From contig NZ_CP066203.1 in assembly GCF_017310545.1 (NCBI RefSeq), forward strand, positions 124,001 to 188,000: a stretch of 64,000 nt of DNA. The letters are read 5' to 3'. The translations under genes were made by a program, and so were the position numbers. The number at the start of each line of letters is the position of its first letter. Positions within the stretch are counted from its first letter, which is position 1. This DNA is from Methylacidimicrobium sp. B4 (GTDB lineage Bacteria; Verrucomicrobiota; Verrucomicrobiia; Methylacidiphilales; Methylacidiphilaceae). Of this stretch, positions 3,525-55,213 are shown piece after piece. The notes under the pieces are model-generated. The model saw nothing but the letters and a program-made list of their open reading frames with translations, made no database searches and had not been told where the DNA came from.

Positions 3525-5303
3525 GTGAAAAAGCCATCTCTTCTTGCCGCAGCCATCTTGTGCTTAACTTTAGCCAGCCTGCCAGCAGAGGCCAGCAGCT
3601 TGGCGGAATTGGTGCAAGCGGCCAAGAAGGGGGATGCCGAGGCGCAGTGCAAGCTGGGCCTTGCCTATTACCAAGGCCAAGGAGTTTCCCGGGATTATGC
3701 ACAGGCGGTCTATTGGTATCGAAAATCGGCAGAGCAGGGGAATGCCCTGGCGGAATTCAGCCTGGCTGTTGCCTATGAGCGGGGTCGAGGCGTTCCGCAG
3801 GATTACGCTCAGGCGGTGTATTGGTATCGGAGAGCCGCCGAGCAGGGGGATGCCGATGCACAATTCAACCTAGGTGTTGCCTATGAGCGGGGTCGAGGCG
3901 TTCCGCAGGATTCCACGCAGGCGGTGAATTGGTTTCGGAAAGCAGCCGAGCAGGGGGATGCCAAGGCGCAATGCAATCTGGGCGTTGCCTACCACAAAGG
4001 GGAAGGCGTTCCGCAGGATTACGCTCAGGCGGTGTATTGGTCCCGGAAAGCCGCTGAGCAGGGGGATGCCGATGCACAATTCAACCTAGGTGTTGCCTAT
4101 GAGCGGGGTCGAGGCGTTCCGCAGGATTCCACGCAGGCGGTGAATTGGTTTCGGAAAGCAGCCGAGCAGGGGGATGCCAAGGCGCAATGCAATCTGGGCG
4201 TTGCCTACCACAAAGGGGAAGGCGTTCCGCAGGATTACGCTCAGGCGGTGTATTGGTATCGGAGAGCCGCCGAGCAGGGGGATGCCCAGGCGCAATTCAG
4301 CCTGGGTGCTGCTTACCGCGAAGGGGAAGGCGTTCCGCAGGATTCTACCCAGGCGGTGAGTTGGTTTCGGAAGGCGGCCGAACAGGGGGACGCCGCCGCG
4401 CAATTCAGCCTGGGTGCTGCCTACCACGAAGGGAAGGGCGTTCCGCAGGATTATGCTCAGGCGGTGAATTGGTATCGGAAGGCGGCCGAACAGGGGCTTG
4501 CTCAGGCGCAACGCATCCTGGGCGTTGCCTACGACGAAGGGGAAGGCGTTCCGCAGGATTCCACCCAGGCGGTCAGTTGGTTTTACATGGCCGCCGAGCA
4601 GGGGGATGCCCAGGCGCAATTTAGCCTGGGCGCTGCTTATGACCGGGGCCGGGGTGTACCGCAGGATTATGCTCAGGCGGTGTATTGGTATCGGAGGGCC
4701 GCCGAGCAGGGGGATGCCCAGGCGCAATGCAACCTGGGCGTTGCCTGTGACCAGGGCCGGGGTGTGCCGCAGGATTCTACCCAGGCGGTCAATTGGTTTC
4801 GTAAAGCAGCCGAGCAGGGGCTTGCCCAAGCACAATTCAACCTAGCCTTTGCCTACCACAAAGGCCGAGGTGTGCTGCAGGATTCCACGCAGGCAGTGAA
4901 TTGGTATCGGAAGGCGGCCGAGCAGGGGCTTGCCCAGGCGCAATGCAAGCTGGGCTTTGCCTATTTGCTTGGCCAAGGCGTTCCGCAGGATTCTACCCAG
5001 GCGGTCAATTGGTTTTACAAGGCTGCCGAGCAGGGGGATGCCCAGGCGCAATTTAGCCTGGGCGCTGCTTATGACCGGGGCCGGGGTGTACCGCAGGATT
5101 ATGCTCAGGCGGTGTATTGGTATCGGAGAGCCGCCGAGCAGGGGGATGCTGGGGCACAAACCTCGCTGGGCTTTGCCTACGAGCTTGGCCAAGGCGTTCC
5201 GCAGGATTATGCTCAGGCGGTGTATTGGTATCAGAAAGCCGCCGAGCAGGGGGAAGCCGAGGCGAAGAAGCGTCTGGCCGTCCTCGAAGGCGGAGGAAAA
5301 TAG
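3525..5303 (+). CDS. Secreted Sel1-like repeat protein 2 with 15 SLR units
   Basis: GTG 3525 is preceded by GGGAGG at 3515-3520. The product of 592 residues starts with a signal peptide (VKKPSLLAAAILCLTLASLP, cleavage near AEASS) and is otherwise a continuous array of about fifteen 36-residue Sel1 repeats, each with GVPQD(Y/S)(A/T)QAV.W(Y/F)..AAEQG. Such solenoids act as periplasmic or cell-surface adaptor proteins. Adjacent units alternate between YAQAVYWY and STQAVNWF types. Near-identical DNA blocks recur 216 bp apart (3861 and 4077 regions) and 432 bp apart (4601 and 5033 regions), exact multiples of the 108-bp unit, so the array has expanded recently by whole repeats. The partner is unknown. 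Confidence 0.88.
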   Translation: MKKPSLLAAAILCLTLASLPAEASSLAELVQAAKKGDAEAQCKLGLAYYQGQGVSRDYAQAVYWYRKSAEQGNALAEFSLAVAYERGRGVPQDYAQAVYWYRRAAEQGDADAQFNLGVAYERGRGVPQDSTQAVNWFRKAAEQGDAKAQCNLGVAYHKGEGVPQDYAQAVYWSRKAAEQGDADAQFNLGVAYERGRGVPQDSTQAVNWFRKAAEQGDAKAQCNLGVAYHKGEGVPQDYAQAVYWYRRAAEQGDAQAQFSLGAAYREGEGVPQDSTQAVSWFRKAAEQGDAAAQFSLGAAYHEGKGVPQDYAQAVNWYRKAAEQGLAQAQRILGVAYDEGEGVPQDSTQAVSWFYMAAEQGDAQAQFSLGAAYDRGRGVPQDYAQAVYWYRRAAEQGDAQAQCNLGVACDQGRGVPQDSTQAVNWFRKAAEQGLAQAQFNLAFAYHKGRGVLQDSTQAVNWYRKAAEQGLAQAQCKLGFAYLLGQGVPQDSTQAVNWFYKAAEQGDAQAQFSLGAAYDRGRGVPQDYAQAVYWYRRAAEQGDAGAQTSLGFAYELGQGVPQDYAQAVYWYQKAAEQGEAEAKKRLAVLEGGGK

Positions 5304-23257: not shown

Positions 23258-24721
23258 CTACCTCTTCGTCCAGTCGAGCGCTTCGGCCAGGTTGGCCGCC
23301 GCCGCGTCCCGATCGGAGAGCGGCTTGAGCTGGAAGCGCCATTCGAGCAGGCGAAGGAACGAGAGCGTTTCGTAGGTCTGGTGGTCGACCGCCCCTTTCC
23401 GTGCGTAGGGGGAGATCAGGATCGCCGGTACCCGGGGCCCCGGACCCCACCGGTCTCCCGCCGGTGGGGCGACATGGTCCCAGAAGCCGCCATATTCGTC
23501 GTAGGTCAGGAGAATCACGCACCGGGACCAGTAGCGGGAGTCCTGGATCGCCCGAATGAGTGAAAGCACGTGGCGCTCTCCCTCTTCCACATTGGAATAC
23601 CCCGGGTGCTCGTTCTCTTTCCCCAGGGGCTTTACGAAGCAGACCGAGGGAAGGGTGCCCTTTTTTAAATCACCGAGCAGATCGGCTTCGTCCTTGAGAT
23701 GAAGCTTCCCCTCCGGGCTCTCCGGGCTGTATCGGGCGAAATAGGCGAAAGGCTGATGGTGGAAGCGAAAGGAGGGTGCGGGGTGTCCTGCGACCGCGTC
23801 CCGCCACCCCCCCGAATACCAGGCCCAGGAGACACCGGCTTCGGTGAGCCTCTCTCCGATGGTCGGTGCGGTGAGGGGTGGGAGAAGATGGTCCTGGGGG
23901 GTCTTGACGCTATGAGGCGCTTGGGCTCCTTGGACCGACCCCACGATATAGCCATCGGGTGTCAGCTTGCCGTCCTTGTGTAGCTCCACCAGGCGGCCCG
24001 ATCCGTCCAAGACCGGATCGGCGACCCATTCACTGGGAGGGTTGCCGGGCCAGCGGGGCGTCTGGCAGGAGACCAGCCAGATGTGATTGAGAAAGGAGGA
24101 GCCGAAGGCGCTCTGGAAGAAATGGTCGAGCACCGTGTACTCCCGGGCGAGGGGAAAGAGGGGGAGCCGGCGGGTCTCATAATAGCCCATGGGAAGCGCT
24201 CCGGTGGCTCCCCAGGCGACATACTGGTTGCTTGCTCCTCCCGCGATCTGGAGCTGGCAGGGATAGAACGAATGGGTCGGGTCCGGGGTGAGCTCGCGCA
24301 GCGAAACGTAGGAGAGGAGCGGGAAGGGGCGGTTGGGAAGGTTCTGCGGGAATCGCGGGTCGGGATGCTTCTCCTTGTCGTCGCGGACCGGAGGGAGCTG
24401 CTTGTAGGGGACCCCCGACCGATCGAGCTGGACCGCCGCCTCCCCAGCCTGGGTGATGCCATCAGCACCGGGAAACCCTCCCAGGAGGTTGTCGAAGCTA
24501 TGGTTTTCCTGAAAGATGAGGAGGATGTGATCGATCGGTGCCTTGGAGGGAGGCGGCAGGGCGGCCCCGGCGGCCATGCCGTGGAGAAGCGGAAGGGCCA
24601 TGCCCAGGGCGAGAAGGCCGCGGGAGAAGAAGCGCACACCGAGCTTTGGGGAGATCACGGGTCTATTTCGCTCCTTGCTAGGAATTTCGGCTGCTTTAGA
24701 AGCTTGCCCCGATGCTTCCAT
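23258..24721 (-). CDS. Secreted phosphoesterase (phospholipase C/acid phosphatase family)
   Basis: The 487-residue protein has a signal peptide-like segment ([20 protein letters not shown]) and the PF04185 phosphoesterase pattern: [23 protein letters not shown] (metal-binding ENHSFD), [33 protein letters not shown], and the late [19 protein letters not shown] with [11 protein letters not shown]. Family members cleave phosphodiesters or phosphomonoesters of phospholipids and other organic phosphates in the periplasm. Its start overlaps the end of the TonB-receptor gene by 26 bases and it shares that gene's promoter region with Pho-box-like repeats, supporting a role in phosphate acquisition. 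An internal start nearer the signal peptide is possible. Confidence 0.87.
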
Positions 24722-27407
24722 AGATCGTGAAGGGAGCTCCGGGATAGCCGAGCAGGTAGCCCGCTTGATAGGCGGTGGGGACGTTGGGGTTGCCCGCCGT
24801 CCCGTAATAGCCGCCGCTGGTGATATATTCGTAGCCGTTGTAGCGGAGGTCGGTGATGTTCAGGAGGGTGAGGTTGAAGTTGAGCACCCGTTCCCGCTCG
24901 AAGAGGCGCATCGGAACGGCCGCGTTGATCGAGGCGTTGAGGGTGTAGTATTGGGGCATCGTCTGGTTGCTGGGCGCCCCTGTGTTGTTATTGAAGACAT
25001 ACTGCTCCCCGTTGAAGATGAACCAGAGGCTTGTGCGGATCGCGACCTTGCCGACCTGCTGGGTCTGGTAGATTCCGCCCGAGAGCATGACGCTCGGCAC
25101 GTAGGGGACGTGGCGGCCGTCATAGGAAACCTGCTGCGGGGTCCCGGGGCTGACAACGTAGCTTTCATAGACCGCGTTTTCTACGGCACCGTTCACAAAG
25201 AGGTGAAAGGTGTCGATCGGGTTATCGTCCAGGAAGAAGTCTGCCCCCTGGTAGATGGAGGTGCCCAGGCCGGTGATCGAATTGCCGACGAAGTTGACCG
25301 TGTTGATCGCCTGCTCGGCGAAGCGTAGCCAGAAGTAGTTGGCGCCGAAAAGGAGGTTGTTGAGCCCGGGCAGCTTTTCGAAGTGGGTCTTCGCTCCTGC
25401 GATGCCATACTGGGCGAGCGAAAGGCCGTAATAGGAGGCCGGAATCGCCTGAAAGAGTCCCCCTCCGCCTCCGACGGTATCGGTTTCGTAGGTTTCTGAG
25501 TAGCTGCCGTAAAGGGCGAGCCAGCGGGTGACCTCCAGGTTGAGCAGGATGGAGGGCTCGATGCCGCCAAGGTTCCGCGTGGCGTTTGGCAACTTGCCCT
25601 GATTTTGTCCCGGGTTGAATTGATACGCCAAGGGGAACTGCTCCTGGGCGTTCATCGAGTAGGCGGTGTGGAAGACGTCGTAGCGGATGCTCGGGACGAT
25701 CTGGAGCGCCTTGATCGGCTCAATCGTGTCCTGGAGATAGACCGCGATATCGGTCTGATCCCAGTAGTCGTTCCGGTATTTGCTGTTCGGAGTGAGCTCT
25801 CCGCCTGGAATCGACGTCCCGGGCAGGAAGTAGTTCGGATTGTAGAACGCGTTGCGGCTGTTGTAGGTGGACGAGATGTAGTAGCCGCCGACATCGACCG
25901 TGTTGTAGGGAAGGATCTTGGTCAATCCGATCTGGTCGCCAAAGTCCCCTTCGGACGGATTATTGTATTCGTAGGCATTGTTGACATTCTCAAAGAAGTT
26001 GTAATAACGACTATGAATACGCTGAGAGGCATTATAGAATAACATGTTGTGGAGCGTGGTCTTCTTGTCGTCGTCGAGATAGATGTTCTGCTTGGCATAC
26101 GCGATCTGCGTCGACTGGCTGTCGTTTTTGCGCCAGGTATCGTAACCGAGGTTGCTGTAGTAGCCGCTGGTCGCCTGGCTGTAGGGGGTGCCGGGGATCG
26201 GCACGCCCGTGGCACTCTGTCCGTTGAGCGTCACGTAGGGGTTGGCGTTAACCGGGAGAATGGTGGGTCGGTAGCCGCCCGCGTCGGCATACCAGGCTCC
26301 GAAGCTGATGTCGCCGTGGTCGAAGTTCTTGATGGTCTTTCCGTAGACGGCATACTGGTAGCTGGGGCTGCGGAATCCATCGGGCGACATCCGGAAGTTG
26401 TTTCCGTCGCCCACCCCGCCCGAGATCACCGTCGACCAGCCATGGATGTCTCCGGTCCGGTAGTCGGCGGTGAGGAGCTTCTGGTTGAAGCTTCCGTAGG
26501 TCATGTTGATATCGGCCCCCGCATGCTCGGTCGGCTGGATCGGCGTGAATTCGACCTGTCCGCCGACGTTGTCATACCAGCGGCCGGCCGCCGTTCCCGG
26601 GCCGTAGGTGACCGCGGTGCTCGAGATCATCGCCATGATCGGGACCGACGGCGACTGCCAGAGGCCCGTGGAGACGTTGTTCATCGGCACCCCGTCGAGG
26701 GTCATCATGATCGAGGCCCCACCCGTGTACCCCCCGAAGCCGCCCCAGCCGTTCCCGATGCCGTTGATCGAGACGGTGTACTTGGTGGCACCCGTGTTTC
26801 CGTAGCCATTGACGTTGACACCCGGAGAGAACTGGAGCACCTGAGCCGCGCCCGCGACCGGCCCGGCGGCGGCGGCCATGTTCTTGTCGATCACCCGGGT
26901 CGTCGTCCCTGAGCGGAAGATCTCCTCCTGGGTCGGAGCCTGAGTGGCTCCCGGAACCAGGTCGGTAGGAGGAGAGAGGAGGGGGTTGTCGGGATCGGCC
27001 ATCACGTTGGTCGTCGGCATCTGGATGGCCCCGTCCTTGCTGCTTGGGATCGTTGCTGCGGGGTCATCCCCGGCGTTGGCGCTCGCCCTAGGCGAGTTGG
27101 AGGCGAGGAGGGGTTGGACATCGGCAAGATCGGATCCGGAAGCGCGAGAGCCGTATACGGACGAGGGCCCGGAGGCGGGCTCTTCGGACGAGGCTGCATC
27201 CCAGGACGAGGGTCCTCCGGCCAAGGCGCTCGATCCGGAAGCCCCGTCCGCCAGGGGGTCGGCCACTGGTGGGATTTCGGATGCGCAAACCCCGATCTGC
27301 GGCAGGCTGACCAGTACGCTAAATAGCAGAAGGCGAGAAATGAGGGAAGAAAGCCGATGTCGAAAACCGACCGGCCGAATCAGTAAGCAACGGCTAAGAT
27401 ATGACAT
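24696..27407 (-). CDS. TonB-dependent outer-membrane receptor (with phosphoesterase operon)
   Basis: The 903-residue protein has an N-terminal signal segment ([17 protein letters not shown]), a ~120-residue Ser/Ala/Pro-rich low-complexity stretch, a plug domain ([20 protein letters not shown]...[39 protein letters not shown]) and a 22-strand-type barrel ending in a C-terminal aromatic residue (IYGSIGASF). Such receptors import scarce solutes across the outer membrane using TonB energy. The downstream phosphoesterase and upstream Pho-box-like array suggest the cargo is a phosphate-containing compound, but siderophore-type cargo cannot be excluded. The long spacer before the plug is unusual. 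Confidence 0.9.
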
Positions 27408-27525
27408 GCTTCTCTCCTCTGCATAGATCTCTACACGGTCCTATCAACCCCGAGCCTCATCGTGGAAATGACTAAAGTGGCCGCGACGATAGCTAGCGAA
27501 GTGGATGCGGCCAACAAAAAACTAT

Positions 27526-27646
27526 GTTACAATTAGGTGACAATCATGTGCCAACTAGATGGCAGGTATATTACGCTTGTGCGACAACTATGCGTCATTT
27601 GTGTGGCGATTGTGTGTACGAGCTGTTACAGAATTGTGACATGACC
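27526..27646 (-). promoter_or_regulatory. Array of eleven 11-bp direct repeats resembling PhoB (Pho) boxes
   Basis: From 27526 the plus strand can be cut into consecutive 11-mers: GTTACAATTAG, GTGACAATCAT, GTGCCAACTAG, ATGGCAGGTAT, ATTACGCTTGT, GCGACAACTAT, GCGTCATTTGT, GTGGCGATTGT, GTGTACGAGCT, GTTACAGAATT, GTGACATGACC. Consensus GTGACAA(C/T)TAT; on the minus strand ATA(G/A)TTGTCAC, i.e. TGTCA repeated every 11 bp. This is the arrangement of PhoB-type binding sites (TGTCA-N6-TGTCA). The array lies ~120 bases upstream of the TonB-receptor ATG and reads in its direction. Identification as Pho boxes is inference; the 11-bp periodicity is directly visible. Confidence 0.72.
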
Positions 27647-40501: not shown

Positions 40502-40542
40502 TTCGAGCAACTACTATGCCGACATTGCTTCGTCAATGTCTT

Positions 40543-40562
40543 TGTCACGCAATTGTAACCAA
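40543..40562 (+). promoter_or_regulatory. Two-unit Pho-box-like site upstream of the TMEM175-like gene
   Basis: TGTCACGCAAT (from 40543) followed by TGTAACCAAAC (from 40554) gives two TGT(C/A)A units spaced by exactly 11 bp, read on the plus strand, in the gap between the AbrB gene (minus) and the channel gene (plus, start 40788). The same TTGTCAC/TTGTAAC words occur in the array upstream of the 24.7-kb TonB receptor. Weaker evidence than the large array because only two units are clear. Confidence 0.4.
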
Positions 40563-40787
40563 ACCGGGAGCAGGCAAGGTTGCAGAAGCAGTTGTTGCCC
40601 GCAAGCTTCGAGGACGGAAACTCCTTCCTCTGGTGCGTGCGGTGCGGGCGGGGCGGGGGAGAACGGGCCAGGAGCGAGCAAATTCTCTCCCTGGATGGGC
40701 GCGGAGTCTGGGCGCACCGCACAAGCAGCCCGGGCGACATTGACGAAAGCTCTCACGACCCCTAGCATCCCGAGCGGCAACATTCCC

Positions 40788-41366
40788 ATGGAAAAGGGCC
40801 GGCTCGAAGCCTTCAGCGACGGCGTCTTCGCCATCCTCATCACGATCACCGTGCTCGAGCTGAAGGCCCCAGATGGGGTGAGCCTCGCCGCGCTTGCTTC
40901 GGTTCTTCCGCTCTTTTTGAACTATCTGCTCAGCTACGTCTACCTCGGGATCTACTGGAACAATCACCACCATCTGCTCAAGGCTTGTGGAAGGATCAAC
41001 GGAGCGATCATGTGGGCCAATCTCCATCTGCTATTCTGGCTTTCGCTCTTCCCCTTCGTCACCAGCTGGGCCGGAGACCACCATTCGGCGACGCTACCGA
41101 CGGCCGTCTACGGGGTCATCCTGCTCGCGGCCGCGATCGCCTATTTCGTCCTCCAGCATCTGATCATCCACGAGCAGGGCTGCGATTCGCGGCTGGCCGC
41201 CGCGATCGGCCGGGATCAGAAGGGCAGGCTTTCGGTGATCCTCTATGCGTCGGCGATCGGCCTCTCGTTTCTTCAGGCGTCGATCGCGCAAGCGATCTAC
41301 GCGCTGGTCGCCATGCTCTGGCTCGTTCCCGACCGCCGGCTGGCGCGCGCGCTGGAGCAGGGGTAA
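40788..41366 (+). CDS. TMEM175/DUF1211-type membrane channel
   Basis: 192 residues with the TMEM175 signature near the N-terminus (RLEAFSDGVFAILITITVLEL, the FSD motif) and six membrane helices including YVYLGIYWNNHHHLLKA. Bacterial TMEM175 homologues form potassium-selective channels. Start ATG 40788 was chosen because the FSD helix normally lies within the first ten residues; the upstream open frame is long but not family-like. Followed closely by a methyltransferase gene (13 bases). Confidence 0.9.
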   Translation: MEKGRLEAFSDGVFAILITITVLELKAPDGVSLAALASVLPLFLNYLLSYVYLGIYWNNHHHLLKACGRINGAIMWANLHLLFWLSLFPFVTSWAGDHHSATLPTAVYGVILLAAAIAYFVLQHLIIHEQGCDSRLAAAIGRDQKGRLSVILYASAIGLSFLQASIAQAIYALVAMLWLVPDRRLARALEQG

Positions 41367-54061: not shown

Positions 54062-55213
54062 TTAAAACACCTCGAAGTAGACCAGAGCAAGATAAATTGC
54101 GGTGAGCGTGCTGACCAGAGCGGCGGTCAAGGCGAGCGCTACGACACCGGATCGCCCTGTCGAGTCGCTGCTGGAATCTTCACGAGCCTTCGGCTTTGTC
54201 GCGGGCTTGGTAGCCTCTCGAGCCTTGCCCGATCGCTCCCCCGTTCGAGCCGGCGGACGCACCGCGTAGGGAGGTGGCTGCTGTTCCGAACCCTTTGCCG
54301 ATGTCCCGGGGTGCCGCGACGCCGTCCGCGTTCCGTTGAAATGGGTCGCGGGTGGCTCCTGCGTGGGAGCGGAGCAAGAATCTTGTGGAGCAGCGCCGGG
54401 CGCCTGGTGGGCGTGCTGGGGAGGCGGCTGCGGGGTCCAAGCCGGGTGGTTTTGGGCCGGCGCTGGGGCCGGAGCCGGGGCAGGACGGTAGCTCTGCGGG
54501 GGGGGAGCCGGAGCCTGCCGGGGGGGCTGCGGAGTGGAGCGTTGGGGAGCTGGAGGAGGGTTGTAGGCGCCAGGCTGAGGAGTCCCGTTCGCAGAATGCG
54601 CGGGGGCCGGTGGAGAAGCGGGCTGCGGGGTCCAAGCCGGGTGGTTTTGGGCCGGCGCTGGGGCCGGAGCCGGGGCAGGACGGTAGCTCTGCGGGGGGGG
54701 AGCCGGAGCCTGCCGGGGGGGCTGCGGAGTGGAGCGTTGGGGAGCTGGAGGAGGGTTGTAGGCGCCAGGCTGAGGAGTCCCGTTCGCAGAATGCGCGGGG
54801 GCCGGTGGAGAAGCGGGCTGCGGGGTCCAAGCCGGGTGCCGCCAGGATTGGGCGGGTCCTTGCGCTGGAGGAATGGGAGGCGTCCATGGGGCCGGACCGC
54901 CATTGCCCGGGGATTGGGGCGGAGAGGACGTGTTGCCCGGAGCGGCGGGATGCTGCGGATAGAAGAAGGAGCCGTATCCGCCCTGCGGAGGGGGAGCCGA
55001 CTGCGGATGGGCTGCTTCGGGAGCCGCAGCATTCGGTTGGGGAAAGAACGGCGGAGGCCAATGCGCACCGTGCGGCGTTGCCGATGGGGGAGGAGGCTGG
55101 GGTTGGGCCTCCTCGTGCGGAAGCTCTTCAGCCTCCATGGCAGGCCACGCCTGCAGGTTTTCGTCGGAAGGGGGGAAATGTCCAGCGTCGTGCCCTGGAG
55201 GAAGGGAGCTCAT
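54062..55213 (-). CDS. Proline-rich protein with C-terminal membrane helix and tandem 65-residue repeat
   Basis: 383 residues from ATG 55213 (MSSLPPGHD). It is dominated by Pro, Ala, Gln and contains two identical 65-residue repeats (each HPAWTPQPASPPAPAHSANG ... PAPAPAQN) encoded by a 195-bp tandem repeat, plus the start of a third. After a basic/Ser-rich segment (KPATKPKAREDSSSDSTGRS) is one C-terminal membrane helix (GVVALALTAALVSTLTAIYLAL). A cytosolic Pro-rich domain on a tail anchor could be an SH3-like or coiled scaffold, but no known partner motif is evident. Located between thioredoxin and ftsH, same strand. Confidence 0.6.
   Translation of the reverse strand: MSSLPPGHDAGHFPPSDENLQAWPAMEAEELPHEEAQPQPPPPSATPHGAHWPPPFFPQPNAAAPEAAHPQSAPPPQGGYGSFFYPQHPAAPGNTSSPPQSPGNGGPAPWTPPIPPAQGPAQSWRHPAWTPQPASPPAPAHSANGTPQPGAYNPPPAPQRSTPQPPRQAPAPPPQSYRPAPAPAPAPAQNHPAWTPQPASPPAPAHSANGTPQPGAYNPPPAPQRSTPQPPRQAPAPPPQSYRPAPAPAPAPAQNHPAWTPQPPPQHAHQAPGAAPQDSCSAPTQEPPATHFNGTRTASRHPGTSAKGSEQQPPPYAVRPPARTGERSGKAREATKPATKPKAREDSSSDSTGRSGVVALALTAALVSTLTAIYLALVYFEVF
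54427..54816. repeat. 195-bp perfect tandem repeat (two copies)
   Basis: Copies at 54427-54621 and 54622-54816 appear identical in every position I compared, including the G-rich runs; about 20 bases of a third copy follow (from 54817). As the unit is 65 codons, changes in copy number keep the reading frame of the proline-rich protein. Perfect identity suggests recent duplication or active copy-number variation. Confidence 0.85.

Follow-up and report, generated by a model that had tools for sequence, protein, structure and literature searches.

An unusually long array of predicted Pho-box half-sites precedes a TonB receptor–acid phosphatase operon in Methylacidimicrobium

Methylacidimicrobium is related to acidophilic methanotrophs. 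In the stretch of the Methylacidimicrobium sp. B4 genome analyzed here (64,000 nucleotides, hereafter the window), a gene for a 903-aa TonB-dependent receptor (24696–27407, minus strand; PF07715, PF00593) is followed by one for a PF04185 phosphoesterase (23258–24721, minus strand), whose reading frame begins before the receptor gene has ended. This is the gene order described in an earlier, sequence-only reading of the region. The phosphoesterase passes the cut-off of the NCBIfam acid phosphatase TIGR03397 (413.7 versus 362.75 bits), and its nearest solved structure is acid phosphatase 2d1g. The receptor shares 94% identity with its counterpart in Verrucomicrobia strain LP2A and, over the best segment, 89% with the one in Methylacidimicrobium tartarophylax; NCBIfam and PDB searches gave no hint of its substrate. 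Upstream lies an array of 11-bp repeats, which ends 112 bp from the receptor start. A consensus promoter scan found no strong promoter. From leader comparison, we infer a promoter core for the operon downstream of the last repeat, at 27486–27514 (minus strand), consisting of TTGGCC (27514–27509), a 17-bp spacer and TATCGT (27491–27486). In the leaders of relatives, TTG and TATCGT-like elements occur at similar distances.

As the sequence-only reading had proposed, positions 27526–27646 split into eleven consecutive 11-mers, with zero indels: GTTACAATTAG GTGACAATCAT GTGCCAACTAG ATGGCAGGTAT ATTACGCTTGT GCGACAACTAT (units 1–6) and GCGTCATTTGT GTGGCGATTGT GTGTACGAGCT GTTACAGAATT GTGACATGACC (units 7–11). 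Self-match is 0.54, 0.46 and 0.47 at lags of 11, 22 and 33, versus ∼0.25 for most other lags. Shuffled sequence has a column statistic of 24.7 ± 6.2 bits, whereas the array reaches 90.6 bits (z = 10.6), and none of 5000 shuffles scored as high. This is the top period-11 stretch of the whole window. Tandem Repeats Finder left it undetected even at a score of 30, because the copies are degenerate. Read on the coding (minus) strand, the unit is GT(C/A)AC-N6, in a register running from 27640 down to 27520; the plus-strand reading (27526–27646) and the coding-strand register (27520–27646) describe one array. Four of the eleven units carry a perfect GT(C/A)AC and eight have at most one mismatch. Across 64 units from five arrays, including those of relatives described below, the consensus is G-T-(C/A)-A-C-A, preceded mostly by T or C. 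The array has a core like TGTCA(T/C) repeated directly at 11-bp spacing, and we read its units as eleven predicted Pho-box half-sites. Exact TGTCA-N6-TGTCA has zero matches genome-wide, a pattern that is too strict because TGTAAC alternates with TGTCAC. The window also contains two longer repeats: a tandem repeat with 2.1 identical copies of a 195-bp unit (54426–54838) and ∼15 copies of a 108-bp repeat, 76% alike (3616–5264).

The genome is a single contig of 2.37 Mb, which we covered by pattern searches and by analysis of selected stretches. The two-unit pattern TGTMAC-N5-TGTMAC (query GTKACA-N5-GTKACA) gave 12 perfect matches, versus none in a reversed control, and 22 versus 3 when one mismatch was allowed. 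Apart from one near a TMEM175 gene, all perfect matches precede TonB receptors or exbB-exbD-tonB; allowing one mismatch added a beta-barrel gene (353 aa). In all, boxes precede 4 of the genome's 11 TonB receptors. Those at the three other receptors, exbB-exbD-tonB, the beta-barrel gene and the TMEM175 gene are shorter, with two to four units. The last of these, GTCACGCAATT GTAACCAAACC (40542–40565, plus strand), is a lone two-unit box of uncertain role: it lies ∼220 bp before the TMEM175-type gene (40788–41366, plus strand) and ∼30 bp before a MazE/AbrB-like ORF on the opposite strand. We considered equating the 353-aa barrel with the major outer-membrane protein of M. fumariolicum (298 aa; PMC10542722), and dropped this for want of a sequence for comparison. 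In Methylacidiphilum-like genomes (genus g2, to which we assign this name by inference), GTAAC-type sites precede the barrel orthologue and a 455-aa gene. Elsewhere in the B4 genome, a 200-bp promoter unit that includes a four-unit Pho box stands in two and three tandem copies before two TonB-receptor genes (L037, 6155–6570 and 9695–10243; G000:C1:2127.2k and 2130.7k). Another genome, G006, has four-unit boxes, adjoining a PQQ alcohol dehydrogenase gene (L126, 3283–3330) and before unnamed genes of ∼450–510 aa (L125, around 3486). Several box-bearing neighbors (in L119, L125, L126 and L130) could not be named by Pfam.

If the box answers phosphate, it might be expected at the genome's own phosphate genes, and the sequence-only reading had offered this as a test. 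The outcome in this genome bears on that test: no box lies at the pst genes or phoU in Methylacidimicrobium or Methylacidiphilum, and TonB uptake genes carry it instead. Nor did position-weight-matrix scans of the pst locus and the six OmpR-type regulator loci of the genome find a second array, and its PhoB-like gene has no box. Sister families differ. With up to two mismatches allowed (reversed control, 2 matches over 150 kb), 16 of the 28 genomes have a box at the pst locus that lies no more than 250 bp ahead of an ORF, against an expectation of ∼0.2. The genes behind these boxes were identified for examples, in which the box precedes pstS (L201), a pst permease (L140, L222), a porin followed by pstS (L206), or phoB-phoR followed by a second box and pstS (L226). 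In G023, also of a sister family, it precedes a phosphate-selective porin (Porin_O_P). In G008, which represents a third genus of the family of Methylacidimicrobium, boxes stand before pstS and before an MGDG-synthase-like gene. The box at pst and phoBR of sister families is the same as the one found here, and therefore TGTMAC-N5-TGTMAC is most simply read as the Pho box of the order. As for phoU itself, it stands alone and distant from pst in the family of Methylacidimicrobium (G000:C1:1318572–1319177, L244) and near pst in several sister families.

OmpR/PhoB-family regulators typically use 11-bp repeats arranged head to tail (PMC4415409). Among the six OmpR-type regulators of the genome, one (G000:C1:1302012–1302677) has PhoB as its best family. 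It scores 235 bits against the PhoB equivalog TIGR02154, below the curated cut-off of 296, and we therefore call it PhoB-like. It shares 54% identity with the PhoB of G023, versus 36–38% for three other OmpR-type regulators of the genome, and its recognition helix, DTRTVDTHVRRLR, is identical to that of G023 PhoB. (The E. coli PhoB sequence used in two alignments was an approximate version.) The adjoining kinase is PhoR-like, with PnpS and PhoR as best matches, both below their cut-offs. A PhoB-type recognition helix and a neighboring kinase of this type thus occur together. Might another OmpR/PhoB-family regulator bind the array, with the TonB regulon answering a metal or other nutrient rather than phosphate? 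Nearly all clear targets are indeed TonB uptake or outer-membrane genes, the genome's own pst genes lack the box, and a candidate exists in a metal-type pair at G000:C1:1359k, whose CopR/CusR-like regulator adjoins a tonB-like gene and a receptor gene. Yet that receptor carries no box (L042), the recognition helix of the CopR/CusR-like protein is unlike that of PhoB whereas that of the PhoB-like protein matches, and in sister families this box is found at pst and phoBR. We therefore consider control by a metal or other nutrient improbable. The sequence-only identification of the array as a PhoB box survives in part: the shared box in sister families, the PhoB-like regulator and its kinase, and the acid phosphatase speak for it, and the lack of a box at the genome's own pst and phoU speaks against it.

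These data make it probable that the array works as one extended Pho-box operator, through which the PhoB-like regulator would switch on the receptor/acid-phosphatase operon when phosphate is scarce. At low phosphate, the PhoR/PnpS-like kinase would phosphorylate the neighboring regulator, which would line up on the GT(C/A)AC half-sites in head-to-tail order, with a winged-helix domain on each 11-bp unit, and recruit RNA polymerase to the operon's promoter. The acid phosphatase could then release phosphate from organic phosphate compounds. The receptor, energized by ExbB-ExbD-TonB, a complex under the same control, could import ligands that contain phosphorus (or a nutrient that is co-limiting) across the outer membrane. 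Having eleven or more sites may carry a benefit of its own, and may make the response steep. Alternatively, PhoB could bind and repress or buffer, with the long array serving as a sink or repression platform and no induction at low phosphate. PhoB can repress or activate depending on site position (PMC10294691), and the array spans more than 110 bp. However, it stops upstream of the promoter-like segment common to relatives, as at activated promoters, and the gene content suits phosphate gain. Repression is, to our mind, a distinctly unlikely outcome, somewhat more so than control by another nutrient.

Pho-box operators usually have a few copies, and the sequence-only reading had called eleven half-sites exceptional. 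The genomes of the phylum bear this out. Five near-perfect consecutive units were found in 4 of 387, a lower bound because the strict pattern misses even the window's own degenerate array. One of the four belongs to the same genus (with matches at this receptor and at another), one has a five-unit site in another family, and two are apparently unrelated. Matches in G238 (an inverted array beside other genes) and G075 (a simple repeat) were set aside. G238, of another family, has inverted 11-bp GTTACA/GTAAC arrays of five to six units (L228, L235), adjoining a ComM-like ORF and a REP-transposase-like ORF. We conclude that this is probably an unusually long Pho-box array. Its length is shared by relatives, five of which hold an array before the orthologous receptor gene, with 11 (L111), 15 (L112), 13 (L113), 14 (L128) and 12 (G005, L230) units, compared to 11 in the window. 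Among five arrays compared, between-array identity is 64–95% for boxes and 33–76% for spacers, and in a first alignment L113 was shorter by exactly 22 bp, or two units. Greater conservation of boxes than of spacers, together with the two-unit indel, suggests that the box and its register are under selection. That the periodicity is an unselected leftover of tandem duplication, as degenerate copies, unit numbers that differ between species and the promoter unit duplicated elsewhere in the genome might suggest, is hardly credible given these two features and the short copies that precede functionally related genes.

How does this operator compare with known ones? The E. coli pho box, where PhoB binds head to tail with a winged-helix domain on each half-site, likewise consists of 11-nt direct-repeat half-sites, with a CTGTCAT core in place of the (T)TGT(C/A)AC seen here (PMC4415409). 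It is defined as two half-sites rather than one run of 11–15, and the array type described here serves TonB genes instead of pst. Streptomyces PhoP operators, simple or complex, also comprise 11-nt units variable in number and quality, though their unit is GTTCACC rather than GT(C/A)AC (PMC4415409). In the Synechocystis PhoB regulon, tandem repeats for a PhoB-type regulator similarly precede outer-membrane porin genes, but the sites have three repeats and a TTAA core (PMC11126600). Closest are the Pho boxes of the sister families (at porin-pstS, phoB-phoR and pstS), with the same TGTMAC-N5-TGTMAC sequence and spacing; these have two to three units and lie at pst and phoBR, whereas the box is absent from pst in Methylacidimicrobium.

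Within one genus, then, there is a natural graded set of predicted Pho operators, with 2, 3, 4, 8 and 11–15 half-sites, well suited to testing how site number shapes two-component induction. The Pho regulon of this lineage has apparently shifted away from pst and toward TonB-dependent uptake across the outer membrane. A wider proposal, which we advance only tentatively, is that the verrucomicrobial methanotrophs have rewired their Pho regulon from Pst to TonB uptake and that array length (2–15), kept over species, also tunes the order or threshold at which targets are induced, the receptor/acid-phosphatase operon lying at the far end of the scale. The findings suggest that the regulator kept its site while pst, the usual core target, left the regulon, and they hint that, in acidophilic methanotrophs, TonB receptors provide a route through the outer membrane that is regulated by phosphate.
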